Virus record (IMG/VR): IMGVR_UViG_3300037963_001839
Coordinates: 1-32,737 of that record
Direction: 5' to 3' (one strand)
DNA from: a virus
DNA length: 32,737 bases
In this document: positions 8,601 to 32,737 of the stretch, one piece after another
Layout: every line of letters starts with the position of its first letter
How positions within the stretch are numbered: the stretch's first letter is position 1
Program-made: the position numbers and the translations under genes
Notes under the pieces: model-generated
The model's database searches: none
Told to the model about the DNA's origin: nothing
The model's input: the letters and a program-made list of their open reading frames with translations, nothing else

Positions 8601-11600
8601 CCGTTTCTCACGTCTTTCATCTCTCATTCTAAGATTTGTTTTAGTGATTGCTTCGCTTGCCTTACCTCCTTCGCGGAAATTATCATTCTCCATATAGACT
8701 TGTTGAGTATCTGGATCTATTTTAAGTCCAGCATATAAATAACCTTCTTGATCTAGTCTTTCTTCTGTTGCGGTTTTTTCAACGTCAATCTCCATACGAT
8801 CCGCTAAACCTTGATCCAAAAGCCTTGAGATAGTGCTATATACAGGGTTATCCATTAAAGAAGCAAAAGCATAAATAGCTTCTGCGTTATCTGCTTGCCA
8901 AAAGTTTCTTTGGTAAAGAGCTTTAACATTTTCGCTCGCTTTACTTATATCTCTATTTAAAGTTTCATTCGCTTTTTCAATTGCTGGGTTAGCCCTGTTT
9001 GCTTCTTGTTGAGAAATAGCAACATTTGCTCCTTTTGGTTTACCTTTACCTTCAACGTAATAATGGTTCTGTTTGACGCCTTTTTTCTCGCCAAGTTCTT
9101 TACCAATCATGTCAACGCCTATAGCCCCACCTGAGTGGTTTGTGTATCCAGAGTCAAGTCCACGTCTCTCAGCAACAAAAGCGCTTAAAGCTTCTGCGTG
9201 GTTTGGGCTTTGCTTGCTGTAATACAACAAAGTAGCATTATCCAAAGCTCCAGAATCAATTTGTTGTAGCACCCAGTTGCGTCTTTCCTGTTTAAAGTCG
9301 GTGTGGGCTGTACCTTCTAACCATGCTTTATATTGATCAACACTATCTTGTAAATTTTTAGTTTTTCTTGTGTCTCTAGTTTGTGTTTCAAGGTGACTAA
9401 AAGGATTACCATAGTGTTGTTCACCTTCTTTACGAAGAACATTTATACCTTTGCCCGCAGCCTCATCTGCTTTAACATTTTTAGATACAACAACGGTAGG
9501 GCCTGTGCCCACGCTATCAACTCCGCGATAAAGCGCTGCGATTTGGTTTCTTATTCGCTTATTAAAGGCTTCGTTTACGAAAATTTCTTTTGAAGGAACA
9601 CCCCTTATTTTTTCTAAAAGCTTAGGAAATTGGTTAGTCCAAAAATCTTTTTTCCCAGAGGGGTTGTTATGTGTAAGTTTAGCGTTGCCTGTTTTTTTAA
9701 GAAGAGCCATTGCTTCTGGGTTAGCAGCAAAAGAAGCCCGCATAAGTTTTTCCATTAGTTTTATGTTCCAGTCATTGTCTTTTTTCGGTTCGCCTTTTTT
9801 AAATACTTTACCTTGCTTCCACCTACTATCGTTATAGACTGTTTCATTAAACTGGCCAGTTTTCCAACTTTGATATGCATGTTCAACTGAATAGTACTGT
9901 TTACCATCTACATATTTAAATGGGCGTTTTGCAAAATTACTGAGAGACTCGAAAGTATTTTTGTCTGTAGACCATACATTAATAGTTGTAGGCGAAGTAA
10001 ATTTAGGCTCTGCGTCTCGCGTACCAATAATGGCATGGTCTTTTGTAAGGTCTGGTGCCTTTTTTAATTCTACAAAACCTTTTTTACCTGAAGGTAAATC
10101 TTCAGCAAACATGTCTTGTTGTTTACTAAGTGTTGTCCATTCATACCATTTACCCCCATCAAAAACATATACAGGTTTACCCATGTCAAGAGCCATTTGT
10201 ACAGCCCAACCCGTACCGCCGCTAACGACCTGCTGTGGCACAGTCTCTAAAAGTTCTCTTAATTCAAGGCTTGTTGGTACTGGGTCGCCTTCTTTAACGT
10301 CCATTCCAGCTTTATTCAAAGCTTCTGCTTGCCGCTTGCTAAGTCTACTAGGTTCTAATTTTTCGCCTCTATTACTTATCGCTTGGCTATAAGATACGTT
10401 TTTCTTTCCGTGTCTATACAAAGGTGTATTAACCCATCCATCAGATTGGTTTAAAGGCTTGCCAGCAAAATGTATTTTATATCCTTGTTCTGCCAACAAA
10501 TCTAAAGCTGTATCAAAAGCATCAGCTACATACCCCGCTTCCAAAGTATATTCTGTAGTCAAGCCTCGTCGTTCTTGGTTAACCTGCATTGCAAAATCAA
10601 TTAGAAAACTAATATCTACAGCCTGGTATTTTGTATCTTCCCCTGGTTTTTTGACAGACCAGCGTTCCGCAAGAGCAAATTTTCTTCGTTCAGCTATTCT
10701 GCGTCCAAAACCTTTATTAGATTCTCCTAAGTTTCTTTCTAAAGCAAAAGTAGAACCAATACCTTTTTGAACAATGTTTGAAAGTTCTGCTTGTACGCTA
10801 ATCGTTTCTGATTCAGGGGTTCTTTGTTTTACTATGCCCCACTCGTTGTTTTCGTTAAGCTCTAAACTGTATACTTCTGTAGGGTTGTCTTTAGATTCTT
10901 TAATAAAAGCCTGTAAGGCTTCATTTGGAACACTGTTGATTCTGCCAGTAGTTGCCATTCCAAATTCTTCTATTGTTTTAGAAACCCATGTTGTTCTTTC
11001 TTCCGGTCCTATAATGTCATAAAAATCTTCTTCTAAATTAATACGTGCCCTTCTTGCGGCTGCTTGTTCTTTTGGGTCTTTTATCGCTGCAATAATTGTA
11101 GACGAAGCGACTTGAGAAAAAGACATTGCGGCTTTTTGTTCGCGTCTACGTCTTTGTGCTGCTTGTCTTTCTCTACCAGGTCTTTCAGCGCTTTTTAATC
11201 TTTCTGTAACAATAGTTTGGCCATCGTCCGGGGCATCTTGAATGGTTACTCCTGGCCCAAACTCGTCGAGTACTGGATCTACTCTATCTACAATCTCGCC
11301 TGTTTCGGGGTCAATGTTTTCTTCGCCTTCAAATCCGCGAACCTCGGCTTCTATTTTTTTGTTCCTTGTGTTAACTACCTCTTCTTTAGTTTCCTGTTTA
11401 ACAGTGTAGCCTTCCTCAGCGATTTGTTTTGCGTACTCCTGTTCTAACTTTGCAAGGACTGATTGTTCTTCTTTAGGTTTAAAAGCTTCTTCGTTTGGAA
11501 TACTCTCTGCATGAATCTCGTTTCCATCTTTATCCCTAACTACAACTGCGTCTGTTTGAGACGCATCTTGTTCATAGGTGTACCCTAAATTTTTTCGCAG

Positions 11601-13196
11601 TTGTCCTTCACTAAAACCATTAGCTTGAAAATCATTAGCAAGTGCTTGGCTTTCTGAGTTACTTCTATCATAAATAAAAAACCCTGACCCATCAGGGTCT
11701 ACAACAAAATCTAGTTTAGCGGCTGTTTTATCATCAATAACGCCTTGTTTTTGCAGATTGTTAAGGATGGCCATAAAGTAGCCTGCTTTATCTGCAGCGG
11801 TTTCCGAACCTTGAAAAGGAACCCATACTCCTTTCTTAGGTTTACCAGGAGTTAGCATGTCTCTTGTTTGGGCGGTAAGATCTCTAAGCGACTCTTGTGG
11901 TAATTTAGAAGCTGCTGTAACTTTACCCGACTTTATAGCCTCAACTATGTCACTTGCCCCTTCTACATTACTTCTAGCCAAACCAATAACATTTGCTACA
12001 GCTGAAGTAGGAGCAGATCGAGCACCACCAGCCCAGAATCCAACAAAAGCAGATTCTGCTCTACGTAGGTTTGCGTCTTGTGAAGAATATTCTGGGTCAA
12101 TGGCCATTCTCTGACGAATCAACAATTCTTCTTGTCCAAGTTCTGTTAAACCTTCTTGAGTACCCCCTTGAAGCAGCCCCCCACCAAGACCACGGGCCAT
12201 TTCTTTCATGTAGTTACCAAACTTTTTATCGCCCGTTTTAACAAAATCTTTAGCTGCTCTTTTAAACAAAGCACCTACAAAAAGCTTTTCGCCTAAAGTA
12301 CCCAATACGGCTTGTGGTATACCTAAACCAAGGGCTGCTTTAGCTTCTTCTTTTGTTAATTTATACCCCGCTTCATCATATTCTGCTAACGCTTGAGAAG
12401 AACCTACCACATACTCCTGGCCAAAAGCACCTGCCCAAAAACCTACGTTTGCTGCTGGAAAATTAGCTATGGCTTGAACTGATGCAGGGCGTCCTAAGTT
12501 AGCGGCTTGTCCAGCTCTAGCTACATTTAAATAATTTACGTATTGTCCTGATTTTTTCGCTGTCTCATATGCCGCATCTAAAATGGCTTTTTCATTTACG
12601 TTTAATGCTGCTCCTTTACCTGCTTTATGTAGAGCATGTTTTTTAACAATGCTCGCCATCATGTCGTTTGTAACTTTCTTAGAAGCCGAAGATAATACTC
12701 CTTTACCTATAGTCGCAACGGCACCTCCAGCAAAGCCTGACGCAATAGAAGACACAGCCATAGGAGTAAACTGTCCTATGCCTTTTATGACTTGCTCAAA
12801 AAAACCTTCTACCGTAGGCTCCTCAACAAAAGCACTAAACTCTCCAAGGTCTCCTAAAATTTTGCCTGATGTTTGGCTTAATACTTCGGCTTGGTTTAGT
12901 CTTTTTTGTGCTTGCTCTTCGTCACCTTTTATGAGGTTGTAAATAGCACCAAACCTTTTTACATCTCCTTCAAGTTGTTGAGCCCCCGCCTCTGCTGCGG
13001 CACCAAAAGTTTCGCCTAGCGTATAACCCAGTTGCATGTCCTGCGGCGCAGGCGCATACGCTGCTTCTGTCGCTATTTGTGTTTCTCGTAGCATGTTTGC
13101 CACAGCGCTCTGTGGTTTCATTGCTTGTTCTGTAACTAATAAAGATTGGTTAAGAAGGCTTGCTACTGGGCTCGGCTTGCTTTTATTAACTGCCAC
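5619..13196 (-). CDS. Giant polyvalent virion protein with SLOG-like, NADAR, DUF4326-like and HEIGH peptidase domains
   Basis: About 2,525 aa from a GTG with AAGG upstream, two bases after the previous stop. An upstream in-frame TTG at 13223 overlaps that gene and has no clear Shine-Dalgarno. Order of segments: Ala/Gly-rich helical N-terminus (to about 420); charged linker; Rossmann/SLOG-like segment with VVSGGTGWAVQ at 990-1000 and KPVYVFD; NADAR (YbiA/DUF1768) domain about 1070-1198 with LSNF and SVEHAYQSWK (Glu1105); DUF4326-like domain about 1232-1344 with HYGNPFSH at 1261; second SLOG-like segment with HSGGAIGVD at 1354-1362; zinc-peptidase HEIGH at 1673-1677; helical C-terminal region with hydrophobic stretches near 2181-2206 and 2409-2431. 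Its position after the internal protein genes suggests packaging and ejection with the DNA, as proposed for phage polyvalent proteins. Individual enzymatic roles are inferred from motifs. Confidence 0.85.
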   Translation of the reverse strand: MAVNKSKPSPVASLLNQSLLVTEQAMKPQSAVANMLRETQIATEAAYAPAPQDMQLGYTLGETFGAAAEAGAQQLEGDVKRFGAIYNLIKGDEEQAQKRLNQAEVLSQTSGKILGDLGEFSAFVEEPTVEGFFEQVIKGIGQFTPMAVSSIASGFAGGAVATIGKGVLSSASKKVTNDMMASIVKKHALHKAGKGAALNVNEKAILDAAYETAKKSGQYVNYLNVARAGQAANLGRPASVQAIANFPAANVGFWAGAFGQEYVVGSSQALAEYDEAGYKLTKEEAKAALGLGIPQAVLGTLGEKLFVGALFKRAAKDFVKTGDKKFGNYMKEMARGLGGGLLQGGTQEGLTELGQEELLIRQRMAIDPEYSSQDANLRRAESAFVGFWAGGARSAPTSAVANVIGLARSNVEGASDIVEAIKSGKVTAASKLPQESLRDLTAQTRDMLTPGKPKKGVWVPFQGSETAADKAGYFMAILNNLQKQGVIDDKTAAKLDFVVDPDGSGFFIYDRSNSESQALANDFQANGFSEGQLRKNLGYTYEQDASQTDAVVVRDKDGNEIHAESIPNEEAFKPKEEQSVLAKLEQEYAKQIAEEGYTVKQETKEEVVNTRNKKIEAEVRGFEGEENIDPETGEIVDRVDPVLDEFGPGVTIQDAPDDGQTIVTERLKSAERPGRERQAAQRRRREQKAAMSFSQVASSTIIAAIKDPKEQAAARRARINLEEDFYDIIGPEERTTWVSKTIEEFGMATTGRINSVPNEALQAFIKESKDNPTEVYSLELNENNEWGIVKQRTPESETISVQAELSNIVQKGIGSTFALERNLGESNKGFGRRIAERRKFALAERWSVKKPGEDTKYQAVDISFLIDFAMQVNQERRGLTTEYTLEAGYVADAFDTALDLLAEQGYKIHFAGKPLNQSDGWVNTPLYRHGKKNVSYSQAISNRGEKLEPSRLSKRQAEALNKAGMDVKEGDPVPTSLELRELLETVPQQVVSGGTGWAVQMALDMGKPVYVFDGGKWYEWTTLSKQQDMFAEDLPSGKKGFVELKKAPDLTKDHAIIGTRDAEPKFTSPTTINVWSTDKNTFESLSNFAKRPFKYVDGKQYYSVEHAYQSWKTGQFNETVYNDSRWKQGKVFKKGEPKKDNDWNIKLMEKLMRASFAANPEAMALLKKTGNAKLTHNNPSGKKDFWTNQFPKLLEKIRGVPSKEIFVNEAFNKRIRNQIAALYRGVDSVGTGPTVVVSKNVKADEAAGKGINVLRKEGEQHYGNPFSHLETQTRDTRKTKNLQDSVDQYKAWLEGTAHTDFKQERRNWVLQQIDSGALDNATLLYYSKQSPNHAEALSAFVAERRGLDSGYTNHSGGAIGVDMIGKELGEKKGVKQNHYYVEGKGKPKGANVAISQQEANRANPAIEKANETLNRDISKASENVKALYQRNFWQADNAEAIYAFASLMDNPVYSTISRLLDQGLADRMEIDVEKTATEERLDQEGYLYAGLKIDPDTQQVYMENDNFREGGKASEAITKTNLRMRDERREKRGLGSPTVFGPSQKEATTPKEKTFVGNDIEAVFKGIIPVLGGITRQFFGRRNLTVLSIQQVLKEGGIRLNAGEGYIEAGGKFKFDGKEHKASDILKMLATDMQAGNKNGKWIKFADTEVILINLPKNATPIQLQKALLALGHEIGHSIYNQAIENAVVNKNMRQRLQKAFEADKKRVGTVAYEGKYGFEEWFSDQMGTWLLKEMQAGPKGTTKATNAVDSFFKRLAKKLIGVFKQLDQLLQKRFTLNMDFDAYVSELSEAIRDSKNPISIEQEIEIRDMVDDVASGVHDAYMPKPLRVRIKNKAVQTLKTMGELLPTDRRHWGVEYLFLPAHNVLKRVLTRAGLDPAFADMIYNPSQSKAATGTLNGRISLMYMRLNELGKLAPQKKNGEPDIDAWEATLKEAEDDTLAYGQLSPEAKKVRRFLEDFYKDNIEGKDPLIKFRENFYPRIINMEALLDNENGERAALASVIVKHNKMPLEAAEAYVEKMLQENERNPDDPQDTVSEVSLGMAKERSDVFTKIPNKDLRDIGVLQDPYVALVTYVQDMTKRIDYKERVTAQVTQADIDNAKKLAKETRQKNLNLKANEKLDNPLGFLLKSDVKVGQEFNGWQASEIHINRIADPRERAKARNAVRSMLGVVGGIKSKPLRQLNNFILAFNVVTMLTFAALASLPDLGGTVLRSKDFGAIKTFGQQMRKYFNNREQARAFARDVGVVSFDSLNTMYLNAAELGFMGDWSKFATEKFFIATGLEAYTKFTRVFAAGMGEQFLVTKAADNSDIATRHLEELQITREDIKKWVKNGRSFETAEGEKVRAAIARFVDESIMRPNSAERPGWASSPHFAVVWQLKSFFYAYGKNIIGGTLREANNRYSEDGKLTSAAIPLVLGATALLPLTMLGLEIRELIKYFGRGMDPAVFRSDNMTWPQYTGEIIDRSGALGAFGLIIPMLDAGKYGGQWWVPPLGPTAERVEKLMNGKVRGKDFLPFYDLGAGELLGL

Positions 13197-13197
13197 A

Positions 13198-15507
13198 CTA
13201 ACCTTGTCCTGCGTTTTGGGCAACTACCGCAGAAAAAATAGTAGCTGTCGCTTGTTTGCCAAGTTCAGTGGACATTTTATAAGTTGAAATTTTACTTCCT
13301 CGGCCATCTCTTGATTTAAAGTGGTCAATTTTACCGCCCTTCTCCAAATATTGTGGGTCTGTTATTTCTTTACCGTTTTCGTCATAAGCTGCCATATTCG
13401 GAAGAAGTGTATAAGCTCCAGTTGCAGGGTCTTGAGCAAACGTAGCAGTCAATATTTCTTTCCAAAGAGGCGCTTCAGCGTTGTCAATCATATAAGTATT
13501 AAAAATTTGCATTTGAATATTTGAGACTTGAGTAAGATCTTGTAAAAGCTCAGGAGTATACTTTCCTCCATTCTGTGCCACAGCTGTTGCGATTCTAGCC
13601 TGTTCTGCCATTATTAAAGGTGCTGCCTTTTTATAGTTACCTGCTTGGAAAAAAGTAAAACTGCCATCGTCTTCTTTTTCTTCAAACATCTCGGTTCTAA
13701 AATTGTTTCCTTCTGGGGTTAAAGAGCCAGCTCTGTCTTCTTGTTTATCATAATATTCTTGCCACTGTCTTTCAGAGTTGCTTCTAGAAGTTGCTGAATT
13801 TGCCTGATTTACTTTTAACGTTTCTCCTGCCAAAGACCACATTCCAGTTTCCAAAAACACAGGCATTGACTGAATCATTTGTTGATAAATTTTCCTATCC
13901 TCTCGAATAGAAGCTAAATAATTAATCATAACCGACGACCTATCTGTTTTAGACATTCTCATCATGTTGCCGTTATGTACTTGTGTGTTAAAGTCGACAA
14001 GCGCTTGTTCCTTTTCAGCTGAAAGTGTTTTAGCCTTATCTAACTCAGCTTCCAAAGCTTCTATGTCTTTATTTACAACTGCTTCAGCCGCTTTTGCTGG
14101 ATCTGCGTCTCCCACACCTTCGTTAAGTAAGTCTTTTTCTTCTTTTGGTATAGTTTTTCCAAAAAGGGTATTAGAGTCATTCATATATTTTTTAGAAAAA
14201 GCAACAGGGTCTGCATTAAACTCTGCTCTTGCTTCAGGGTTTGTTTTAAACACTTCGTCTAGTTTTTTCTTGTTTCCTGTATACCAAGCTTTTGCTTCTT
14301 GTACTTGTGTTTGCCCTCTTTCAGCCATTGCTCTTCTAAAAGCAGGTTCTGCTTCTAAGTGCATTGCGTTTAAAGTCTCAGCAGTTTGTTTTTTAGACAA
14401 CGCGTCTAATCTATTACGTTCGTTTGGGCTAAGGCTAAGGTATTGCTCCTCGGTTAAATTTTTAGGTTTAAGTCCAGGTGTTTCAAGGTATCCGTCTTTT
14501 TGTTGTATCGGAGAAGGTCTCATAGTAACAACCCTACCCTGCGATTGTAGTCTGCCTTCTGTGTTTTCATTGAAAAGCAAACCAGCAAGCTCTTCTCCCA
14601 TAGGCAAAGAGCCATCTTCTTTTATACCGTACCCAGCACCATAATTAACTACATTATCTTCAATTGGTGTTGGATCGGCTTTAGCCGTTTCTAAAGCTGC
14701 TTCGGCTGCAGTTACGCCTTCTTGTGCTGCGGTTGCTTCGCCTTCAAGTATTTTTAAGCGTTCTTGTCTAGAAACCCCCTCATTAAAAAGATTTGCTTCA
14801 CTTTCATTAAAAAAACGAAGGTTTGTGTCAATGCCTGCTTGATCCGCTTTTGTTTTTTTATAAACCCGCATAAGATCATCTATTTTTGATAGAGGAATAG
14901 CGCCTACCGCTTCTAAGTCTACAGCTTCTGCTCCACCTTCTGCGGCTATTTCGTTTTCATCTCTGCCACTAGTTGTCATGTTATTTGTACGAATATTTCC
15001 GGTTTCAGGGTCAACTGTTCTAACTTTTGGAATAATAAAAATTTCGCCGTTTTCATCTTTGTATAGTGTTGAGTTTGTCTCATCTAACCTTTTTCCAGGC
15101 CCTAAAAACTCGCTTGCCATCCCACTTAAATTTACATAATCATAAAATTTATCTTCGCCCAAAAGTGCAAAAATATCTGTGGCTTTCATGCCGTACGTCC
15201 CTTCATCCACTTCTTGTCGCCTATAAAAATCCTCTGCATAAGATTTAAAATCGTCGCTAAGAGACATATCTTCTGGTTTTGCGTTTGGGTCTTTACTTAT
15301 CCAGGCACTAGTCTGCTCTTTAGTATGTTGTCCAGTACGAAGATTTTGTTCTAGTTGGTTTAAAGCCATTTGTTCAATTTCAAAAGTGTCACGAAAGGCT
15401 CGCTCTGCTGCTTGTTGTTCTTGCTCTCTGTTATCCAAAATAATAGCAAGATCCGTCGCATCATTACGCGGGTTCATTTGGTTAGCAATGTTATCGAATA
15501 ATCCCAT
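13198..15507 (-). CDS. Large helical internal/ejected virion protein
   Basis: This 769-aa protein begins MGLFDNIANQMNPRNDATDL. It is largely alpha-helical and rich in Ala, Glu, Gln and Lys. Heptad-like runs near residues 245-275 and 490-520 suggest coiled coils. There are no Cys clusters, signal peptide or clear membrane segments, and no catalytic motif I can name. The ATG follows the previous stop by only two bases with no strong Shine-Dalgarno, so translational coupling is likely. In podoviruses the genes between the adaptors and the fibres at this point code for internal core proteins that are ejected into the cell; that role is inferred from order and size. I do not recognise a family by sequence. 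Confidence 0.7.
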   Translation of the reverse strand: MGLFDNIANQMNPRNDATDLAIILDNREQEQQAAERAFRDTFEIEQMALNQLEQNLRTGQHTKEQTSAWISKDPNAKPEDMSLSDDFKSYAEDFYRRQEVDEGTYGMKATDIFALLGEDKFYDYVNLSGMASEFLGPGKRLDETNSTLYKDENGEIFIIPKVRTVDPETGNIRTNNMTTSGRDENEIAAEGGAEAVDLEAVGAIPLSKIDDLMRVYKKTKADQAGIDTNLRFFNESEANLFNEGVSRQERLKILEGEATAAQEGVTAAEAALETAKADPTPIEDNVVNYGAGYGIKEDGSLPMGEELAGLLFNENTEGRLQSQGRVVTMRPSPIQQKDGYLETPGLKPKNLTEEQYLSLSPNERNRLDALSKKQTAETLNAMHLEAEPAFRRAMAERGQTQVQEAKAWYTGNKKKLDEVFKTNPEARAEFNADPVAFSKKYMNDSNTLFGKTIPKEEKDLLNEGVGDADPAKAAEAVVNKDIEALEAELDKAKTLSAEKEQALVDFNTQVHNGNMMRMSKTDRSSVMINYLASIREDRKIYQQMIQSMPVFLETGMWSLAGETLKVNQANSATSRSNSERQWQEYYDKQEDRAGSLTPEGNNFRTEMFEEKEDDGSFTFFQAGNYKKAAPLIMAEQARIATAVAQNGGKYTPELLQDLTQVSNIQMQIFNTYMIDNAEAPLWKEILTATFAQDPATGAYTLLPNMAAYDENGKEITDPQYLEKGGKIDHFKSRDGRGSKISTYKMSTELGKQATATIFSAVVAQNAGQG

Positions 15508-20981: not shown

Positions 20982-22100
20982 CTAACCAAAGTCACCACGC
21001 ATTCTACGTAATGTTTCTTCAGGTAATGCCATAAATTCATCATCAGACAACACGTCTATGTCTACAGGTTTCTCGCCGCGTTCTCCAGCGCCTTCGCCTT
21101 TCATAGCAGGCGGTTGCGATTTAGCTGCAGCCACTTTCTTTTTAACTGTAGTTTTTTGTCTGCGTTCTTGTACTTGCTCTTTAGTAACAACATTTTCGTT
21201 GCCCTGCAAACTACTATCACCTGTTGTCATGTTTAACAAATCTGGTCTTTTTGCAGCTAGTGTATATTCAGTTGCTCGTGCCAACGAATCAGCCGCACCA
21301 TAGCCTTGCACAATAAAAGCATCTCTAAGTTCCATAACCTCTTGAGTTATACCTTCATCAAAAGTAGGACTGTTTTGGTCCAATATAGGAAAAGTAGATT
21401 CAATTTCGTTTGCTTTTGCTTGTAGCTCTTGCGCTTCTTGACTCTGTTGAACTGTTTGACCCATCTGTTGTTGAACTTCAAACATCATTGCTTCTTTTTC
21501 AGCTTGTCGAATTTCATTACGAACCACAGCAGCTTGATTCATTTCACCATCAAGTAGCAATTGTTGATACTCTTGCTCTTTAGATGCGAAGTCATATTGA
21601 GGAGCCTCAGCTTTAGCTGCCGCTTCTGCTTGTTCTATCTCTTCAATTCTTTTTTGCATTTTTTTGTTTTTAGCAAGAACTTCATCAAGTCGAGACTTAG
21701 GAACCATAGGTGCTTTAGGTTTGTCCTCTACCTGTTCTTCCGCCACCTCTTCTTCAACTCCTCCATCGTCTGATCGTGTAGCGTCTGCATCTGCGTCAGC
21801 CATTGTTTCTTCGACCACCTCTTCTGGGCTGTCTTCTGCCTCTGGTTCTGCTTCGCTTTGTTCTTTTGCCTCAAGTTCTTCTGGGCTCGTTTCAAGATTA
21901 GTCTCGTCTCCAAGTGTGTCTTCTTGCGATGTCTCTGTTTCTTCATCAGTCACTCCTTCGTCTTCTGATACTGTTTCAAAGTTCATATCTACATTAAAGC
22001 CTTCTGCGTCTTCTTTAGTAATCGCGTCTGCTCCTGGCATTCTGTCGTAAATAATATCGCCTTGTATATCTTCGTTTGGGTTTGCTTTCTTCTTAGCCAT
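20982..22100 (-). CDS. Scaffolding protein
   Basis: This 372-aa protein has residues 20-128 extremely acidic (runs of Glu/Asp/Ser/Thr). Residues about 135-230 form a Gln/Glu/Lys/Ala coiled coil (VLAKNKKMQKRIEEIEQAEA). A Lys-rich stretch lies near 320, and the C-terminus is short and conserved-looking, LSDDEFMALPEETLRRMRGD. The acidic disordered head, coiled coil and small C-terminal capsid-binding tip between the portal and capsid genes are typical of phage scaffolding proteins. The ATG follows GGAGG and overlaps the end of the portal gene by 8 bases. Confidence 0.8.
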   Translation of the reverse strand: MAKKKANPNEDIQGDIIYDRMPGADAITKEDAEGFNVDMNFETVSEDEGVTDEETETSQEDTLGDETNLETSPEELEAKEQSEAEPEAEDSPEEVVEETMADADADATRSDDGGVEEEVAEEQVEDKPKAPMVPKSRLDEVLAKNKKMQKRIEEIEQAEAAAKAEAPQYDFASKEQEYQQLLLDGEMNQAAVVRNEIRQAEKEAMMFEVQQQMGQTVQQSQEAQELQAKANEIESTFPILDQNSPTFDEGITQEVMELRDAFIVQGYGAADSLARATEYTLAAKRPDLLNMTTGDSSLQGNENVVTKEQVQERRQKTTVKKKVAAAKSQPPAMKGEGAGERGEKPVDIDVLSDDEFMALPEETLRRMRGDFG

Positions 22101-24216
22101 CGTTATTACCTCCTGTTGGTGTTTTCATAGCTGCTACAGCAATTTTACTCGCTGCTTGAGTTTCAGAGGCAAGGTTTCTTTGCTCGTTGGTTAATCCTGC
22201 TAACCTTTCGCGCAACTGAAGCTCTTCTCTCTTAATTTGAAGTTGGTTTTGCATTTCTGCTATTTTCATTTGTGGGTCCACTTGTGCTGTTCCTTGAGCT
22301 TTAGCAGTATTAAGGGCTGCTTCGCTTTGTAGTTTAGTTACTTCTGCTTCTAGTTTACCAATCTCTAACTGCATTTGTGTCATAGCTGCCTCTGCCTGGA
22401 ACTGTTGTATAGCTGCTTGTTCTTCTGTTGGCGGCTCTGTACCTTGCATCATACGTATTCTTTGTGCCACTTCGCCTTTACGTGATAAATGTGAATAATC
22501 AACAATAATGTCATCTGGTATTGGAACACCAACTTGTCGAAGTTGTATTGCTTCAGCAAATTGCATTTCATCAAAGTTATCTCTAGCTGGGCTAGTAGAT
22601 ACAACAACATCGTACTCCCCTAAAGTAAGGTCGTTTATAATTTCCCCTTCTGGTGTCATTTGGTTAAGTACCATAGGTTCACTTGCCTTCATAGGATCAG
22701 ACTCGTCTACAATTTGCACAATACGCTCTTCTGTATAATAAGCTTGAACAAGATTTAAAACTTTCTCCGCTAAATACTGTCGTGTTTTAGCTAAGTTGTC
22801 CAAAGGCACTTGTACCATCATTGCGCCTCTGTTTTGTTTTGCCTGAATTGCAACACCTGACACTTCTGGACTGTCTGTACCTAACATTGAGTCACTGATG
22901 CCACTAATCTGTTTTATGTTAATAGCAGCTTTTTGACTGATACGATCTAAACCGGTAGGAATCTGGTTCGGCGGAATTTTAGCCGGAGGGTTAAACCCAC
23001 GGTTAAATTCGAGTACTAGTCCTGTCTCAGCACCATGCTCTTCTAAGTCATCTGCATCCATGCCACTTAGAGAACCAGCTTCCACAATCCAACCGCTGTT
23101 AGCAGTTGTGTTTACAATGTGTAGTTCTTGAGAAGAGATCTTGTTCAGCTGTTCCTGGGGGGATATCAGATTACGAACCATACCAAAAGGTCGACCTCTT
23201 CTCCAGAAAGGAAAATAAGGAACTAAAGTAAAATGGTCATAAGGAGACCAATCATCATGTAAAACTACCAAATCTGCTGTTACTGTCCAACGTACTTTAC
23301 GTACAAGTTTTGTAAGAATTTCTAAGCCAAACTCATCTGCAAAGGCTTCTCGTTTTTTCTTTTTCCAATTATATGGTACTTCGCGCATGTCTCCAGTAAC
23401 AGAATCGACATAGAACATACACTCTTTTAATCTATAATATTGACGCTCTACTACTCGAACCGAGCGAAGCGCGCGATTTTCTTCTGGGTTAGTTGTGTTC
23501 CCTTGTTGATATTCAACACCGCTATAAGTGTCACCATATCGAACTTCCTCAAACTCAATTGAATCTGTACCTAAAACTGACCCTTGTTCTACAGTTATAC
23601 GCAGTTTGTCTGCTTGCTTTTGTCCATAGGTCTCTTCTATCTCATCAAGACTTAACCACCGCGTTTCAAAAATCTCGTTCCACGTTCGGGGGTCATAATC
23701 TTTTGCATCTGGGTCAATAAGAATATCTAACGGGTCTTTAGCTGTTATACGAACTTCGCCTTGAATGTGGTCATCAAAGTCTACGCGCACATCAAACCAA
23801 CCCCTGTCTTGTATAAGACCATCAGAAAACACTTGCGACTCTACCCACTCTAACTTGTTGTTATCAGAAATCTGCATAAACAACTTAGTAAGTGTGTCCG
23901 CAATATCCTGTTTGCCCCGCCCCCTAGGTTTAAATGTCACATCAGCTCTACGTGTACTTTGCTCACCGAGCACAGTATTAATTGTAGGTAATATAGTATT
24001 AATAGTAAGGGCGGGTCTGCCTTGATCATCTAATGTAGATAAATCAGCAGCATCCCATTGTTCTCCTCGATAAAAAGCATCGCATCTTTTTGCGACTGCG
24101 ATGTAATCTTGATGTCCGTTGTCACGGGCGCGTGTATATGCGTCCCATTGATCACGGGCAAGTTGGTGTTCTTTTGCTTTACTTAACCTTTTGGGTTTGT
24201 CGGATCTGTATGCCAT
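22093..24216 (-). CDS. Portal protein
   Basis: This 707-aa protein contains KRCDAFYRGEQWDAADLSTL, GRPALTINTILPTINTVLGE, RRADVTFKPRG, DVRVDFDDHIQGEVRI, DPLDILIDPDAKDYDPRTWN and a C-terminal Gln/Glu-rich coiled coil (about residues 600-680). This matches P22 gp1-like portal proteins of podoviruses, whose dodecamer is the DNA channel and docking site for the terminase. The ATG shares one base with the terminase stop (TAATG). The length of about 700 residues and the long helical C-terminal barrel fit the family. Confidence 0.9.
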   Translation of the reverse strand: MAYRSDKPKRLSKAKEHQLARDQWDAYTRARDNGHQDYIAVAKRCDAFYRGEQWDAADLSTLDDQGRPALTINTILPTINTVLGEQSTRRADVTFKPRGRGKQDIADTLTKLFMQISDNNKLEWVESQVFSDGLIQDRGWFDVRVDFDDHIQGEVRITAKDPLDILIDPDAKDYDPRTWNEIFETRWLSLDEIEETYGQKQADKLRITVEQGSVLGTDSIEFEEVRYGDTYSGVEYQQGNTTNPEENRALRSVRVVERQYYRLKECMFYVDSVTGDMREVPYNWKKKKREAFADEFGLEILTKLVRKVRWTVTADLVVLHDDWSPYDHFTLVPYFPFWRRGRPFGMVRNLISPQEQLNKISSQELHIVNTTANSGWIVEAGSLSGMDADDLEEHGAETGLVLEFNRGFNPPAKIPPNQIPTGLDRISQKAAINIKQISGISDSMLGTDSPEVSGVAIQAKQNRGAMMVQVPLDNLAKTRQYLAEKVLNLVQAYYTEERIVQIVDESDPMKASEPMVLNQMTPEGEIINDLTLGEYDVVVSTSPARDNFDEMQFAEAIQLRQVGVPIPDDIIVDYSHLSRKGEVAQRIRMMQGTEPPTEEQAAIQQFQAEAAMTQMQLEIGKLEAEVTKLQSEAALNTAKAQGTAQVDPQMKIAEMQNQLQIKREELQLRERLAGLTNEQRNLASETQAASKIAVAAMKTPTGGNNDG

Positions 24217-27874: not shown

Positions 27875-28465
27875 ATGCATTCTACTCTTATCAATCGCAA
27901 CGGCTCAGTTCTTAAACGGACTGGGCTGTTGTGTCACCCTTTCGATAAACAGTTCGGAGATCTTCTAGACATTAGTCGGGAGTACCGAGAGCTAGAGTTC
28001 GGAAGGTACACTAGTTTCTTTGGGCTTGATGGTGCTAACTACAAGTACTCTGGCAAGAATCACCTTGCTAGACCTATGCCGTTAGTACTATCATCATTCA
28101 GAGATCTAGCCCTAGAACGCGCGTACTACTCAGGCTTTCTGAAAAACGCGCCACTAATTGACCTCTTCAACCACATTCTTCTCAACGAATACGAAGAAGG
28201 TCAAAAACTAAATGCACACAAAGACGACGAACCCGACCTCATCGGACCAATTGTCAGCATTAGTTTAGGTGCACCTGCAAACTTCAACTACGGAGTTAAT
28301 CGCAACTGCACTACGTCTACGCTCTTAGAGCACGGTGATATTCTCATTGGAAACAAACATTTCTTTGATAACTACTATCATTCAGTCTCAGAGCCACAGG
28401 ACGGAGTAAGGATCAACCTTACTTTTAGAACTGTTAAGGACACGATCTCTTCAAAGAGATCGTGA
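27875..28465 (+). CDS. AlkB-like 2-oxoglutarate/Fe(II) dioxygenase
   Basis: 196 aa with the AlkB-family pattern: NEYEEGQKLNAHKDDEPDL with N104, Y106, and the iron ligands H115 and D117; GPIVSISLGAPANF; GDILIGN; the third ligand H169 in NYYHSV; and RINLTFR with R179 and R185 for 2-oxoglutarate and the core strand. The family oxidatively removes alkyl groups from nucleic acids. The first 60 residues are less typical. Role here is probably repair or modification of phage DNA or RNA; the substrate cannot be told from sequence. Its last codons form part of the next regulatory hairpin. Confidence 0.88.
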   Translation: MHSTLINRNGSVLKRTGLLCHPFDKQFGDLLDISREYRELEFGRYTSFFGLDGANYKYSGKNHLARPMPLVLSSFRDLALERAYYSGFLKNAPLIDLFNHILLNEYEEGQKLNAHKDDEPDLIGPIVSISLGAPANFNYGVNRNCTTSTLLEHGDILIGNKHFFDNYYHSVSEPQDGVRINLTFRTVKDTISSKRS

Positions 28466-28487: not shown

Positions 28488-28511
28488 CAGTCAAATACGG
28501 GGGAAATACCT

Positions 28512-28799
28512 ATGACAAATAGAAAAGAGTTAACTGTATCTCAAGTAAAATGCAGAATCCAAAAGAACGACACAACAGCTTACGCATATCCTATGGGAGC
28601 TGTTTGGTTAATGGAAAAAGCTATGGGAGTCAACATTGTTCCAAACTTTGAACTTCCTAAGCGTGTAGATAACCAAGGCAACATAAAAACATGTCCCTTG
28701 GAGATTTACTTTGACAACTTAACTGATGACATTCTTCAAGCTGTCGTCAACTACGCTAAAACATTAGACATCGTCGCTGACGAAGGAGATAAATCATGA
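28512..28799 (+). CDS. Hypothetical protein (95 aa)
   Basis: This small soluble protein starts MTNRKELTVSQVKCRIQKND. It contains AYAYPMGAVWLMEKAMGVNI, a Pro/Val segment and LEIYFDNLTDDILQAVVNYA near the C-terminus. A mixed alpha/beta fold is likely, with no catalytic motif I can name. GGGGG lies 9 bases before the ATG. Its stop overlaps the next ATG (ATGA), giving translational coupling, and module copy 3 precedes it. Confidence 0.6.
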   Translation: MTNRKELTVSQVKCRIQKNDTTAYAYPMGAVWLMEKAMGVNIVPNFELPKRVDNQGNIKTCPLEIYFDNLTDDILQAVVNYAKTLDIVADEGDKS

Positions 28800-28999
28800 C
28801 AATAACGCGTAAACTCGGTGGAGTATCACAAAAATGGTACAGCATCGTTAAAAAAAGAACACTTCCAGTCGCTCAAGGACTCATAGACGAGTTTAAAGTT
28901 GGTTGGAACTATGAAAAACATGGTGGAGAAGTCGAGATAAAAGTCGACGAAGACGGAAACTTTGTCTTTACACCTACACGGGAGAACAACCATGACTGA
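28796..28999 (+). CDS. Hypothetical protein (67 aa)
   Basis: 67 aa starting MTITRKLGGVSQKWYSIVKK. The N-terminal half is basic and the C-terminal half carries beta strands (GEVEIKVDEDGNFVFTP). The start overlaps the upstream stop by four bases (ATGA) and the downstream 24-aa peptide starts within its last codons, forming a three-gene chain. Family unknown. Confidence 0.6.
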   Translation: MTITRKLGGVSQKWYSIVKKRTLPVAQGLIDEFKVGWNYEKHGGEVEIKVDEDGNFVFTPTRENNHD

Positions 29000-29066
29000 A
29001 TTACTTTTAGTCTTTTCCTTAATTCTACTAGTTTTAGTCATTGACTATTACTTCTGGAAGGCTTAA
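28992..29066 (+). CDS. 24-aa single-span membrane peptide
   Basis: An ATG inside the last codons of the upstream gene opens MTELLLVFSLILLVLVIDYY followed by FWKA and a TAA at 29064. Almost the whole peptide is one hydrophobic helix with a charged C-terminal tip. Upstream GGAG (in GGGAGAAC) is about 8 bases away. The terminator follows 15 bases after the stop, which supports it as the last gene of a short unit. Too small for family recognition. Confidence 0.5.
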   Translation: MTELLLVFSLILLVLVIDYYFWKA

Positions 29067-29081
29067 CGGGTTTACCCCTGG

Positions 29082-29122
29082 GGCATGGTGGCCGACAAGC
29101 GGACACCATGCCTTTCTTTTTT
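29082..29122 (+). terminator. Intrinsic terminator
   Basis: Perfect 9-bp arms GGCATGGTG (29082-29090) and CACCATGCC (29104-29112) enclose a 13-base loop. TTTCTTTTTT follows directly. This is a standard Rho-independent terminator ending the AlkB-to-membrane-peptide unit. Confidence 0.85.
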
Positions 29123-29186
29123 ATTTAACATAGAGTCATCGTGTGCCGTTTACTACTATCATCGCGAGCCTGTGAGCGTGATTCTA

Positions 29187-29552
29187 GTACCGTGGTGCAA
29201 AAAACTTGACTCTGTGTACCGCTTGTACCAGATGTGTACCACCACTTTTTGCAATTAGCGGTACAGCTACAGCCCCCGTAAACACGGACCGTGAACCGTG
29301 AAACGGCACCCGTGTACCGCGTGTACCAGCTAAAACTCTCGGATACTAGTTATTTAACCTATGTTCTATATTAATGTCTAAAAGTCTAACAGACCTAAAA
29401 ATAGCGGTACAAATGGTACAAAGTCCTACAACCCTTATCCTAGAAGCATCTCAGCTGTACCACCACTTTTCAACTCGTGGTACACTTAGCATCCGCTCGG
29501 ACCCCCAGCCCTTACAGCTACTGCATATCAGGTGTACCACTAGTCCTGGTAC
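29187..29552. repeat. GTACC iteron-like array in a 543-bp non-coding gap
   Basis: GTACC occurs on the plus strand at 29187, 29216, 29225, 29236, 29314, 29323, 29457 and 29534. Its reverse complement GGTAC occurs at 29260, 29406, 29415, 29479 and 29548. Three pairs have the form TGTACC-N3-TGTACC (29215-29229, 29313-29327, and inverted at 29406-29420). A longer direct repeat, TGTACCACCACTTTT, is at 29235-29249 and 29456-29470. Thirteen pentamers in 366 bases, against under one expected by chance. No convincing gene lies here; the small open frame at 29374 crosses the repeats and has no ribosome site. A replication origin or regulator-binding array is likely. Confidence 0.7.
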
Positions 29553-29592
29553 ACGGGCAGAGCCCGTGGTTCCTTGGCTTTGTGTTATTAAT
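29552..29592 (+). promoter_or_regulatory. Hairpin-CCTTGG module, copy 4
   Basis: Arms CACGGGC (29552-29558) and GCCCGTG (29562-29568) close an AGA loop. Three bases follow, then CCTTGG at 29572 and CTTTGTGTTATTAAT. AGGAG and the ATG at 29610 follow, 38 bases from the hexamer. The left arm overlaps the last GGTAC of the iteron-like array. Confidence 0.72.
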
Positions 29593-29609
29593 TAAATTAG
29601 GAGTAGATC

Positions 29610-29813
29610 ATGGACATAGATTTACCACAATACATACTTGATGACTTGTTTACTAAACATGAAGACGAGCGAGATCGTGTTCGTGACGGTATACCTAGTG
29701 TGATGCTTATGAAGTATTGGACTAGTCGCAGTTATGGTAGACACCAAGAGATTGGTTACAAAACTAGGCGTAAACGAAAGTATGGTAAGAGATATAAACT
29801 GCTTAAATTTTAA
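29610..29813 (+). CDS. Small basic protein (67 aa)
   Basis: 67 aa starting MDIDLPQYILDDLFTKHEDE, acidic in the first third and strongly basic at the C-terminus (TRRKRKYGKRYKLLKF). AGGAG lies 10 bases before the ATG, after module copy 4. The basic tail suggests nucleic-acid contact but no fold or family is recognisable. It is the only gene between the iteron-like array and the 243-aa gene. Confidence 0.6.
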   Translation: MDIDLPQYILDDLFTKHEDERDRVRDGIPSVMLMKYWTSRSYGRHQEIGYKTRRKRKYGKRYKLLKF

Positions 29814-29834
29814 TTGCGGTTTGTTGAGTGCTTA

Positions 29835-29854
29835 CCTTGGTGAGTGAATATTAA
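29835..29854 (+). promoter_or_regulatory. CCTTGG module, degenerate copy 5 without the hairpin
   Basis: CCTTGG at 29835 is followed by TGAGTGAATATTAA and then GAGGAG and the ATG at 29879, 44 bases from the hexamer, the same spacing as in the other copies. The upstream CACG/CGTG hairpin is missing; only a weak overlapping CTTACC/GGTGAG pairing is possible. Confidence 0.5.
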
Positions 29855-29878
29855 CCTTCTATATAGAGGAGAATAAAA

Positions 29879-30610
29879 ATGGCTAATGTAGATCATTTTG
29901 ACCCGTCGGAGATGGAGACGGAAGAACTAATTCCATCAAATGAGACCCCTGAGTCTGCGTATCGTCCAGATACGATCGGTGACCCAGAAGGCTCCGAAGA
30001 AAGAGATAAGCAAGTAGCAATTGTGTTACCTGATTTCTTTTATCGCAGATATAAACTAGACGATGCAGGTAATCCTACCTTCAACGAAATAGTTGTATCT
30101 CAAATCATGGAAGTCTTTGATGCTAAGTATGGCACTGAGCAATCGCATAGTGACGACAAAGCTGAAGACTATTTTAACAGCCAAGTTGAACAAGTCGTTG
30201 ACGGTTTCAGCCAGCTGTTAGAAGTTGATCCACAAACAACTGGTATCAATGCATTGCAATTGGCTACCAGAACCTGGGCTGAGTTCGCTAGTGTTGCTTA
30301 TGAGTATAAAGACTCAATTAGCACCATTAAAGAAGATCAGGAGATACCAGATTGGCTAATCGATAGAGAAGACAAAATGGTTCAGCTCGGTCGTAAAGCT
30401 AGAATGTTGTCAGCTTTTCTTAACAAAATGGATGACAAGTTTGGTCTTAAAGATGTTGAGATCAGTCGCTTCAGAGTCCAACAAGCAGTTGAGAATCGTC
30501 TACAGCGTTTAGCTGAGTGGAATTACAATCAACATGCAGACAAATCTGGCGCTGTTACTAGTAAGACTATTACTAATCAGACAGCTTCAGCAATGTTTGA
30601 TAATGCGTAA
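29879..30610 (+). CDS. Acidic hypothetical protein (243 aa), possible partner of the AAA+ ATPase
   Basis: 243 aa. The N-terminal 45 residues are acidic and probably disordered (SEMETEELIPSNETPESAYR). The rest is largely helical, with VAIVLPDFFYRRYKLD, VEQVVDGFSQLLEVDP, LQLATRTWAEFASVAYEYKD and LGRKARMLSAFLNKMDDKFG. The C-terminal tail is Thr/Ser/Gln-rich. GAGGAG lies 9 bases upstream. No family recognised. It precedes the MoxR-type ATPase but is separated by a structured 240-base stretch and a terminator, so a functional link is only a possibility. Confidence 0.65.
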   Translation: MANVDHFDPSEMETEELIPSNETPESAYRPDTIGDPEGSEERDKQVAIVLPDFFYRRYKLDDAGNPTFNEIVVSQIMEVFDAKYGTEQSHSDDKAEDYFNSQVEQVVDGFSQLLEVDPQTTGINALQLATRTWAEFASVAYEYKDSISTIKEDQEIPDWLIDREDKMVQLGRKARMLSAFLNKMDDKFGLKDVEISRFRVQQAVENRLQRLAEWNYNQHADKSGAVTSKTITNQTASAMFDNA

Positions 30611-30809
30611 TTAATGTCCCGAAGTGTCAGCTCTACTTTGTTACTCAAAGGGCTTTAGTCACCCCCAACTTTTGACCTGTCGGGTTGGAACGACTTAAAA
30701 AGCTCAGGCAGGTCATTAGGTTGGTGCTCAACCTGTTGTCTAGACCTAAAATCTAGTACATCTACCAAAAAGCACCCCTTGGTCTGGTTCGGGGTATAAA
30801 CCAGAGGGT
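30611..30809 (+). ncRNA. Candidate structured non-coding RNA or 3'UTR
   Basis: The 339-bp gap has no gene but folds readily. Stems: AGCT+CTTTG with CAAAG+GGCT (30629-30654, bulged); GACCTG with CAGGTC (30674-30714) as a longer closing pair; AGGTTG with CAACCT around GTGCT (30718-30734); CTAGA with TCTAG (30740-30756); CTGGTT with AACCAG (30784-30804). CCCGA at 30618 can also pair with TCGGG near 30680. An 11-bp terminator hairpin follows. The GGTTCG stretch is not part of a tRNA. It may be a free small RNA or a structured 3' end of the 243-aa gene message. Confidence 0.5.
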
Positions 30810-30853
30810 AGCCTGGAGTCCTGTTGGCAGATTCTAGGCTATCACTTTTTTTT
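30810..30853 (+). terminator. Intrinsic terminator after the structured region
   Basis: AGCCTGGAGTC (30810-30820) pairs fully, with two G-U pairs, to GATTCTAGGCT (30830-30840) around a 9-base loop. After ATCAC there are eight consecutive T residues. A good Rho-independent terminator, ending either the 243-aa gene message or a separate RNA. Confidence 0.75.
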
Positions 30854-30949
30854 ATTTATGCAAGTAATCATGTGCTGTTTAAATATCTTATTCAGTAAAA
30901 CCCATTTGCCAGTTTATTGGCTGTTTTAATTTAATTTAGGAGTAGGAGT

Positions 30950-31993
30950 ATGCATCAAATACGTCCAAAGCATCTCGTTTCAGAGATTGTTGATAACATG
31001 CGTGCCGGTCTTAACACCATGATTTGGGGTGGACCAGGTATCGGTAAATCAGAAATACCAGAACAAGTCGCCACGAGCCTTGGTCAAAAGTTGTTAGACT
31101 TTCGTGCGAACTTGTTTGATCCTGTTGACGTTCGTGGTGTCCCACGAGTTGTCAAAGTTAAGGATCAAGACAAATATTTTACATCGTGGGCTGTCCCAGA
31201 TGTATTTCCAATTGTGGAGCGAGATGGTGAGCGTGGCTTATTCTTCATTGATGAATTGCCAACGGCGCCGCCTGCAACACAAAATGCGTTCCTGCAGTTA
31301 TTATTAACCAGAAAGGTTGGGGATTATCATCTACCGCATGGCTGGTCTATCATAGCTGCAGGTAACCGTTTGACAGATTCTGCTGCTGTCTACCAAATGC
31401 CATCACCTGTCAGAAACAGGTTAGCTCATTATGAGTTAGAACCTAATGTTGATGACTGGTGTGATTGGGCAATTGGCAATGGCATCAGCGATTCGCTTAT
31501 CTCATTTATGAGATATCGCCCTGGGCTGTTGTATTCATTTGACGCCGACCACTACTCTTTTCCTACTCCTAGGAGCTGGGCGTTAGTGGATAAGAAGTTG
31601 AAGATAAACAACAATGAAGAGACATTGTTTTACGGTGTGTCTGCATTAGTTGGCGATGGCCCAGCAGGTGAGTATGTAGCATTTAGAAAAATTGCTGACT
31701 CACTCCCTGATATTGACAATTTGATTGAGAATCCACAGAAATACAAACATGATTCTGATCCAGCTATCTTGTATGCCCTCACAGGTGCTTTGGCAGCTAG
31801 GGCAACCGAAGACAAGATAGCTAATATTATGCGTATTGGCGACAAGTTGGAAACCGAATATCAAGTTGTTCTTGTCAAACAGTCAATTCAACACGACAAG
31901 GCTAGGGCTAACTCAAGTCCAAATTATAAACCTATTATTGATTCTCCTTCTATACAGAAATGGATCAATGATAATTCAAATGTAATCTTATAA
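30950..31993 (+). CDS. MoxR-type AAA+ ATPase
   Basis: 347 aa with Walker A GGPGIGKS at 27-34, Walker B LFFIDE at 97-102, sensor-1 IIAAGN with N139 and arginines R155/R157 in PSPVRNRLAHYEL, the usual MoxR order. The C-terminal 150 residues form a helical lid (DDWCDWAIGNG, YSFPTPRSWALVD). MoxR-like proteins act as chaperones or remodellers, usually with a von Willebrand A partner encoded next to them; such a gene may lie beyond the window. AGGAG occurs about 13 and AGGAG again 5 bases before the ATG. A weak CCTTGG-like leader (TATTGGCTG at 30915) precedes it. Confidence 0.88.
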   Translation: MHQIRPKHLVSEIVDNMRAGLNTMIWGGPGIGKSEIPEQVATSLGQKLLDFRANLFDPVDVRGVPRVVKVKDQDKYFTSWAVPDVFPIVERDGERGLFFIDELPTAPPATQNAFLQLLLTRKVGDYHLPHGWSIIAAGNRLTDSAAVYQMPSPVRNRLAHYELEPNVDDWCDWAIGNGISDSLISFMRYRPGLLYSFDADHYSFPTPRSWALVDKKLKINNNEETLFYGVSALVGDGPAGEYVAFRKIADSLPDIDNLIENPQKYKHDSDPAILYALTGALAARATEDKIANIMRIGDKLETEYQVVLVKQSIQHDKARANSSPNYKPIIDSPSIQKWINDNSNVIL

Positions 31994-32003
31994 GGAGAGT
32001 GTT

Positions 32004-32177
32004 ATGGCTTTTTACGAAGTTCTTATCTTTATTATAGCTTTCGTTGGTACTTTGTTACTTCCAATAGGCTATACGGTCTATGACCGGCACCATACAAAAA
32101 ATGGTGTTTTCATTATGGTATATGGTTTCTTTTGTTCAATAGTAACCATTGCTGGCATTATTAATCTTTTAACTTAG
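32004..32177 (+). CDS. 57-aa two-pass membrane protein
   Basis: The ATG at 32004, with AAGGAG 7 bases upstream, opens MAFYEVLIFIIAFVGTLLLP and ends at TAG 32175. Hydrophobic segments at about residues 5-24 and 36-56 flank a basic loop YDRHHTKNG. It starts 10 bases after the ATPase stop and stops 9 bases before the next gene, so it sits in the same unit. Family unknown. Confidence 0.6.
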   Translation: MAFYEVLIFIIAFVGTLLLPIGYTVYDRHHTKNGVFIMVYGFFCSIVTIAGIINLLT

Positions 32178-32186
32178 AGGTATATT

Positions 32187-32737
32187 ATGGCAACTGTCCG
32201 TATGGCTGACTACCTTCGTCACAATATTGTCAAAAAGTTTAAACAACTTTATGACAAGTCTAACCCACCAATTGAGCAAAAAGCTTATCACGGTGACAAA
32301 CTCTATGAGACTTTATTGTCTGGCAAGATTGAGAAACTCAACGAGAAGATTGTAGAGTCTTTTGGAAACATTATTGAGCTTAATGAGCTTCTTATGGAAA
32401 CAGATACTCTTAAAATCAAAACAGACATGATGCTTTATGACTATGAAAGAGAGTATGACGAAATCAAAAGCACACACTTTTATAAAATTAAAGAAAAGTT
32501 TAAAGAAGATGTTGAAATTGAAGTACCTTTGTCTTCTCAGTCTTTAATGTTTTGTCAAAGAGGAGGGTATTACGACACTCCAGCAGCAATTCACGTTGAT
32601 GAATTAACTAGTGTTGATATACCTGACGCAGCAAAAGAGTACATAGAGAAAATTAAGAAGAACCATCAAGATGAATCTTATCGTTATGCTAAAAAGTATA
32701 TAGATTCTGAAAAAGTTGATGAAACTCTTCTTCAGTT
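32187..32737 (+). CDS. Hypothetical marine-phage-type protein, C-terminus beyond the window
   Basis: The ATG at 32187 with AGAGGT 7 bases upstream opens a frame of at least 183 residues running off the edge. It starts MATVRMADYLRHNIVKKFKQ and continues through AYHGDKLYETLLSGKIEKLN. From memory, proteins opening with MATxRM followed by a Lys-rich helix and GDKLY recur in marine phage genomes without known function. The body is Lys/Glu-rich and mostly helical with coiled-coil character. The position beside the MoxR-type ATPase is the only functional hint. Confidence 0.65.
   Translation, partial: MATVRMADYLRHNIVKKFKQLYDKSNPPIEQKAYHGDKLYETLLSGKIEKLNEKIVESFGNIIELNELLMETDTLKIKTDMMLYDYEREYDEIKSTHFYKIKEKFKEDVEIEVPLSSQSLMFCQRGGYYDTPAAIHVDELTSVDIPDAAKEYIEKIKKNHQDESYRYAKKYIDSEKVDETLLQ

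Follow-up and report, generated by a model that had tools for sequence, protein, structure and literature searches.

What is the function of a dense cluster of short, regularly spaced words in the non-coding DNA of a phage? The question was raised by a TGTACC array at positions 29187-29592 of the IMG/VR virus record IMGVR_UViG_3300037963_001839. The window analyzed here is this whole record, a linear tailed-phage fragment of 32,737 bases; "genome-wide" counts therefore cover these 32.7 kb. A sequence-only reading had offered a replication origin, a partition-like site or a master operator as candidates. We conclude, with a probability of roughly 87%, that the array is a replication origin of this marine phage. 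With slightly less confidence, we regard a VapE-type helicase encoded by the phage as the protein that binds it.

Organization of the array

The array is a non-coding stretch between a hairpin (29082-29112) and an open reading frame (ORF) starting at 29610. Thirteen GTACC/GGTAC pentamers were found within 366 bases (29187-29552), the number that had been claimed. Their density was 32 per kb inside 29187-29592 versus 1.6 per kb in the remaining window. Twelve of them are TGTACC (30 per kb in the array region versus 0.65 per kb elsewhere), and the thirteenth, AGTACC at 29187, is not conserved in relatives. Dinucleotide shuffling of the region, repeated 2000 times, gave 0.67 TGTACC on average and at most 5, as compared with the 12 observed. 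The pentamer count elsewhere in the window had been set beforehand as a check that could refute the sequence-only reading; the density outside the array turned out to be 20-45 times lower.

The three TGTACC-N3-TGTACC pairs described from the sequence were all recovered, two direct and one inverted, and they are unique within the record. The 15-bp direct repeat TGTACCACCACTTTT is likewise present, at 29235 and 29456. From left to right, the sites are a (+,+) pair at 29215/29224, facing sites at 29235 (+) and 29260 (-), a (+,+) pair at 29313/29322, the core, a (-,-) pair at 29406/29415, facing sites at 29456 (+) and 29479 (-), and facing sites at 29533 (+) and 29548 (-). The paired sites step by 9 bp, and both inner pairs point toward the core. 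The layout thus comprises two opposed sets of 9-bp-stepped TGTACC iterons, 12 in total, with a 78-bp AT-rich core between them:

29215-29229 (+): outer iteron pair on the left, TGTACCGCTTGTACC, with a 9-bp step; kept in five of five close relatives
29235-29265: left facing element, TGTACCACCACTTTT (+) and GGTACA at 29260 (-); both sites kept in all relatives
29313-29327 (+): inner iteron pair on the left, TGTACCGCGTGTACC, directed at the core; from the sequence and the alignment of relatives
29328-29405: AT-rich core, 78 bp, 71% A+T (flanks, 47-50%), where melting is proposed to occur; conserved in relatives
29406-29420 (-): inner iteron pair on the right, TGTACCATTTGTACC (minus strand), directed at the core; spacing 8 bp in relative L008
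29456-29484: right facing element, TGTACCACCACTTTT (+) and GGTACA at 29479 (-); from the repeat and the alignment of relatives
29532-29554: right outer inverted pair GTGTACCA-N7-TGGTACAC; site 1 in all relatives, site 2 lost in L008

Conservation and distribution of the layout

Close relatives (L004, L005, L006, L008 and L012) were found by scanning viral contigs with the MoxR-like ATPase of the window. Absence of the array from them had been named as a second refuting observation; it was present in all five relatives covering the spot. In their alignment, the TGTACC words are in register and the AT-rich core is kept, while the intervening sequence has largely drifted. Among the 12 sites, the sole departures are in L008, which lacks one outer site and has a step altered by one base.

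The core pattern TGTACC-N3-TGTACC-N(65-95)-GGTACA-N(2-4)-GGTACA matched at least 119 viral contigs in the viral collection and 15 genome contigs (Actinobacteria, Bacillota, Proteobacteria, Chloroflexota and one archaeal metagenome-assembled genome (MAG)), as compared with 5 matches of the reversed-pattern control. The matches are largely redundant, 89 loci representing the window's own kind of phage. In two MAGs, the array lies beside other replication proteins that do not belong to superfamily 3 (SF3): a DnaG-type primase in a Methanosarcinaceae MAG (L165) and a DUF3854/AAA_25 protein in a gammaproteobacterial MAG (L167). The array may serve these proteins too.

The same layout was also found with other iteron words. 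A relative at 48% identity (L010) carries TGTGCC at the matching place, and the TGTGCC version occurs in 56 viral contigs. Further words, TGTTCC, TGTAAC, TGTAGC, GTGTGAC and GTGTACAC, were found on records each of which encodes the helicase. Among named phages, an array lies directly 3' of the primase-helicase gene in NrS-1 (GGTTACACTT), APSE-1 (GTAACAACC), YeP4 (AGACAACCT) and Caulobacter Jess A (TGTAACC), and prophages too have same-layout arrays in this position. The array of KPP25 (TGTTACGAT) is in an intergenic stretch, and no array was seen in the intergenic stretches examined of Aeromonas phiA008. We found no paper describing TGTACC or TGTGCC iterons in phages, and window positions 28500-32737 showed no direct DNA similarity to named phages.

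Association with a VapE-type primase-helicase

Outside the window's kind of phage, the array stands beside a VapE-type primase-helicase gene in 20 loci; in nearly all of these, 48-190 bases separate it from the 3' end of the gene. In further unrelated loci, the proteins adjoining the arrays are DUF5906, VapE-like, D5, NrS-1 polymerase HBD, or DUF927 with a Cch-type helix-turn-helix. The array-adjacent helicases of unrelated loci carry varying primase parts in front. DUF5906 is present in 26 of 40 TGTACC and 27 of 40 TGTGCC array records, most of which are fragments.

In long contigs of the window's own kind of phage, a DUF5906/VapE-like protein of about 830 residues (NrS-1-like SF3) is encoded 10-12 kb from the array, where its gene adjoins those of a family-A DNA polymerase and an SNF2 helicase:

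G001: array at 23637, helicase gene at 35431
G002: array at 13983, helicase gene at about 25271
G013: array at about 21970-22260, helicase gene at 9307-11817

A contig of the nearest relative (G018), whose ATPase is 94% identical to that of the window, also encodes a VapE-type helicase. A cognate SF3 primase-helicase is thus found in relatives including the nearest one, its gene lying outside the truncated window. The reverse analysis gave a similar picture. With a word-independent detector, which called none of 32 shuffled sequences positive, an array of the same layout was found in 9 of 12 large records chosen by the helicase alone.

The family was detected by the VapE-like (PF05272) and DUF5906 domains; D5_N (PF08706) was not found in 21 long records. 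A profile built without NrS-1 matched the helicase part to the C-terminal region of NrS-1 with an E-value of 1.3e-39. Fold comparison gave Z-scores of 18 for the NrS-1 C-terminal region and 10.6 for the SaPI5 primase-helicase, and further matches were poxvirus D5/E5, African swine fever virus PrimPol, papillomavirus E1 and adeno-associated virus Rep, all of which are ring-forming helicases.

These neighbours bear on two other explanations. The array could be a packaging or recombination site, such as pac/cos or attP arm sites, since terminase genes lie about 3-5 kb away. The same array in other phages, however, adjoins the primase-helicase and not the terminase, and no integrase was found among the scanned neighbours, so that such a function is very improbable. 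A centromere-like partition site for a phage-plasmid state would be suggested by the resemblance, from general knowledge, of clustered iterons to some plasmid centromeres. Against it, the nine proteins around the array in this fragmentary record include no ParA/ParB-like family, an AT-rich core between inward-facing iterons is a feature of origins, and the association is with primase-helicases. We consider partition highly unlikely as well.

Concerted change of iterons and the helicase wing

The arrays are nearly pure. With the four sites demanded by the search pattern left out of the count, 140 TGTACC arrays contained 894 extra TGTACC and 19 TGTGCC, and 58 TGTGCC arrays contained 310 extra TGTGCC and 3 TGTACC. 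The sites therefore change as a set, as would be expected if one protein reads all of them. The helicase tree, whether or not the C-terminal domain was included, implies about four changes of iteron type (at least 3-4), among them switches between the close sister helicases L142/L246 and L139/L247.

One of 813 columns in the helicase alignment separates the two types, with S, T or K in helicases accompanied by TGTACC and N or H in those accompanied by TGTGCC. The residue is located in an RKR...RG loop near the C-terminus. The C-terminal domain, modelled with a predicted local distance difference test score of 87, has the order strand-helix-helix-strand-loop-strand-helix; it is a predicted winged helix, with the separating residue in the wing. 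Its best match in the PDB was the NrS-1 Tail (Z 5.7), followed by RFX-type winged helices, neither match being strong enough to establish the fold. Helicases with TGTTCC carry I one place on from the separating column. Four TGTACC records outside the discovery set also carry S, but they are near relatives of those used. In all four phylogenetically independent pairs, the wing residue is concordant with the iteron. We regard a correspondence between wing residue and iteron as a strong lead from sequence comparison, not as proof.

It is conceivable, though we place it slightly below even odds, that there is a widespread class of modular phage origins in which SF3 initiators read the iteron with the wing of their C-terminal winged helix and a simple residue-to-base code, all of the roughly 12 sites in an array being rewritten whenever the loop changes. 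The code proposed as part of this idea, equally tentative, would assign S, T or K to TGTACC, N or H to TGTGCC, and I one place on to TGTTCC.

The concerted switching also bears on the operator. A phage repressor or activator acting on the TGTACC sites could set early and late expression of divergent gene blocks; the array is near the switch from leftward structural to rightward genes, and regular 9-bp steps would suit a cooperative regulator. However, only one promoter-like site was found in 28500-30000, fewer than in shuffles, the layout is kept amid quite different neighbours, where it lies 3' of primase-helicase genes, and the iterons switch together with the helicase wing. A master operator is therefore quite unlikely; neither this nor the partition-like site of the sequence-only reading gained positive support.

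Evidence for and against the origin

The reading as a replication origin is supported by the conservation of the array, by its two-sided iteron/AT-core layout, shared with phage-satellite origins that have been examined by experiment (PMC6092414), by the repeated association with an initiator-type primase-helicase, and by the co-variation of the iterons with the C-terminal wing.

Several facts weigh against it or against the helicase as its reader. The helicase gene is absent from the 32.7-kb window, and no examined contig joins the exact array of the window to its own helicase. The record ends before the replication genes, and the initiator gene is known from relatives. By the same detector, three of the 12 large helicase records showed no array, G134 (L417-L419), G142 (L423-L425) and G140 (L448-L449); these may have another type of origin or diverged repeats. 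Seven actinobacterial loci with the TGTACC core pattern (L155, L159, L161, L162, L164, L166 and L168) have no recognized primase-helicase within the 8 kb examined. They are in chromosomes of Plantibacter, Microbacterium and Curtobacterium, and are perhaps satellites that depend on the initiator of a helper, or have another function. As for the wing residue, four independent pairs cannot reach significance (sign test, p 0.125). Among labelings with equally many changes, 28% give some separating column somewhere, and we therefore rejected the significance of the whole column as stand-alone proof; 1% separate in the wing, but the wing region was defined after the fact. Finally, a local minimum of the GC skew near the array coincides with the switch in gene direction, and GC skew was excluded from the evidence for this reason.

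It is worth considering that the array is an origin but that its TGTACC sites are bound by a different protein of the phage or the host. The distance of 10-12 kb between array and helicase gene in the window's group and the small number of independent pairs behind the wing correlation, only four, would agree with this. On the other hand, a VapE/D5-type helicase adjoins the array again and again in phages that are otherwise unrelated, and helicases of the types found in Staphylococcus aureus pathogenicity islands (SaPI) and the staphylococcal cassette chromosome mec (SCCmec) recognize origins through their C-terminal domain (PMC7581432). A different binder is thus unlikely.

Comparison with known systems and proposed mechanism

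The rep-ori of SaPI and other phage-inducible chromosomal islands (PICI), which occur in Gram-positive and Gram-negative bacteria, resembles the window's array in its two-sided iteron/AT-core layout and, on our reading of the array, in having a primase/Rep helicase as initiator (PMC6092414). In a test, a replicon with the EcCICFT073 rep-ori persisted as a plasmid (PMC6092414). There, however, the origin is directly 3' of the rep gene, whereas the two are 10-12 kb apart in the window's group; the 3' placement is seen in other lineages studied here. These islands are phage satellites without a full structural set, whereas the window encodes a large terminase, a portal and a major head protein. 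By analogy, the mode of action would very probably be that of a PICI origin, but the array belongs to a full phage and is separated from the initiator gene, and we do not class it as a PICI origin. Nor is it of the lambda type, in which iterons are inside the initiator gene, the array of the window being intergenic.

Cch2 of SCCmec is a D5-type helicase, the C-terminal domain of which binds a 23-bp direct-repeat region downstream of its gene with three 5-nt iterons AAGTG, in the origin fragment TACCACTTAAT (PMC7581432). By our reading, the numbers for the AAGTG iterons would fit a 9-bp step. The likeness lies in the helicase C-terminal domain and the iterons downstream of the gene. The system differs in having only three iterons in one 23-bp region and a separate polymerase pair as primase, and in being a resistance island and not a phage.

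Among solved structures, the primase-polymerase of the Nitratiruptor phage NrS-1 (6k9c/6k9e) is most closely related to the helicase part. The NrS-1 array, of the GGTTACACTT type and directly 3' of the primase-polymerase gene, contains TTTGGTTA, which is the priming site of NrS-1 polymerase (PMC8718748). The iteron is a different one, and the available portions of PMC7102993 and PMC8718748 do not describe the array as an iteron origin. A second copy of TTTGGTTA, mentioned in PMC7102993, was not in the 9 kb examined. The predicted iteron-reading domain finds its closest PDB counterpart in the Tail of NrS-1 polymerase (6k9c/6k9e), which PMC7102993 called a novel fold; this Tail may itself be a winged helix that binds the origin. 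Immediately 3' of the primase in NrS-1 (L231, AB746912 17055-17456), the annotation lists a 'hypothetical protein' (BAN05338); it overlaps the iteron array and probably does not represent a real gene.

In Vibrio cholerae PLE, RepA and the origin iterons vary together, and origin swaps showed that they function only in cognate combination (PMC8263062). The co-variation is similar, whereas the initiator is of the RepA_N type and the repeats are semi-palindromic, of about 30 bp.

We propose that subunits of the self-loading, phage-encoded VapE/DUF5906 (NrS-1-like) primase-helicase would bind the TGTACC iterons via the C-terminal winged-helix domain, the wing of which would read the fourth base of the iteron. 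The 9-bp step, which had been taken from the sequence as the mark of an oligomeric binder, would stack the subunits on one face of the DNA; this fits, as SF3 helicases form hexamers. Two helicase rings, oppositely directed across the AT-rich core, would be loaded by the two inward-facing iteron sets. Melting of the core would follow, the rings would move out, and the fused primase and the family-A polymerase of the phage would start bidirectional synthesis. We infer two-ring loading and core melting by analogy with the SaPI/PICI and SCCmec helicases, and binding and the direction of replication would follow the same model.

Surroundings of the array

Leftward genes of the window encode the large terminase, the portal, the major head protein and other structural proteins, and rightward early-type genes begin at about 27 kb. 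Two further features are as follows.

29082-29112 (+): hairpin with 13-nt arms and a 5-nt loop, then a T-rich tail, identified as an inverted repeat; terminator-like end of the upstream gene block
30950-31993 (+): MoxR-like AAA ATPase (phrog_1297), the marker for finding relatives; no array binding proposed

The sequence-only reading had placed the array after a terminator and before a small basic protein. The hairpin with its T-rich tail was found, and a consensus terminator scan made no call there. The small basic ORF (29610-29813) exists, but its tie to the array did not hold, since its homologue in L005 is about 1.8 kb off with other ORFs in between; it was for this reason rejected as the array binder. 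The ORF 29374-29595, which overlaps the array, was rejected as a shadow ORF, frame-changing gaps crossing it in L006 and L008, and a cluster of 24 array-crossing ORFs was likewise rejected. Next to the origin region, an AlkB-like 2-oxoglutarate-Fe(II) oxygenase (PF13532, E 8.9e-17) is encoded at 27875-28465 (+). A 2534-residue virion-type protein at 5619-13223 (-) has a weak NADAR-domain match (E 0.00076), below the cut-off.

Implications

The origins of most environmental phages are unknown, and the layout described here is a searchable signature for an origin together with its initiator. An organization said to be peculiar to phage satellites is now extended to a large range of full phages, and the orphan 'Tail' fold in NrS-1 polymerase gains origin binding as a suggested function. 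As the iteron words appear to change with one helicase loop, sites and proteins can be paired from their sequences; L142/L246 and L139/L247 are natural pairs of close initiators with different iterons, suited to the study of joint changes in specificity. If the residue-to-base code is true, cognate origins would be predictable from protein sequence, and phages might escape origin-stealing satellites or rivals by rewriting the loop and the array.
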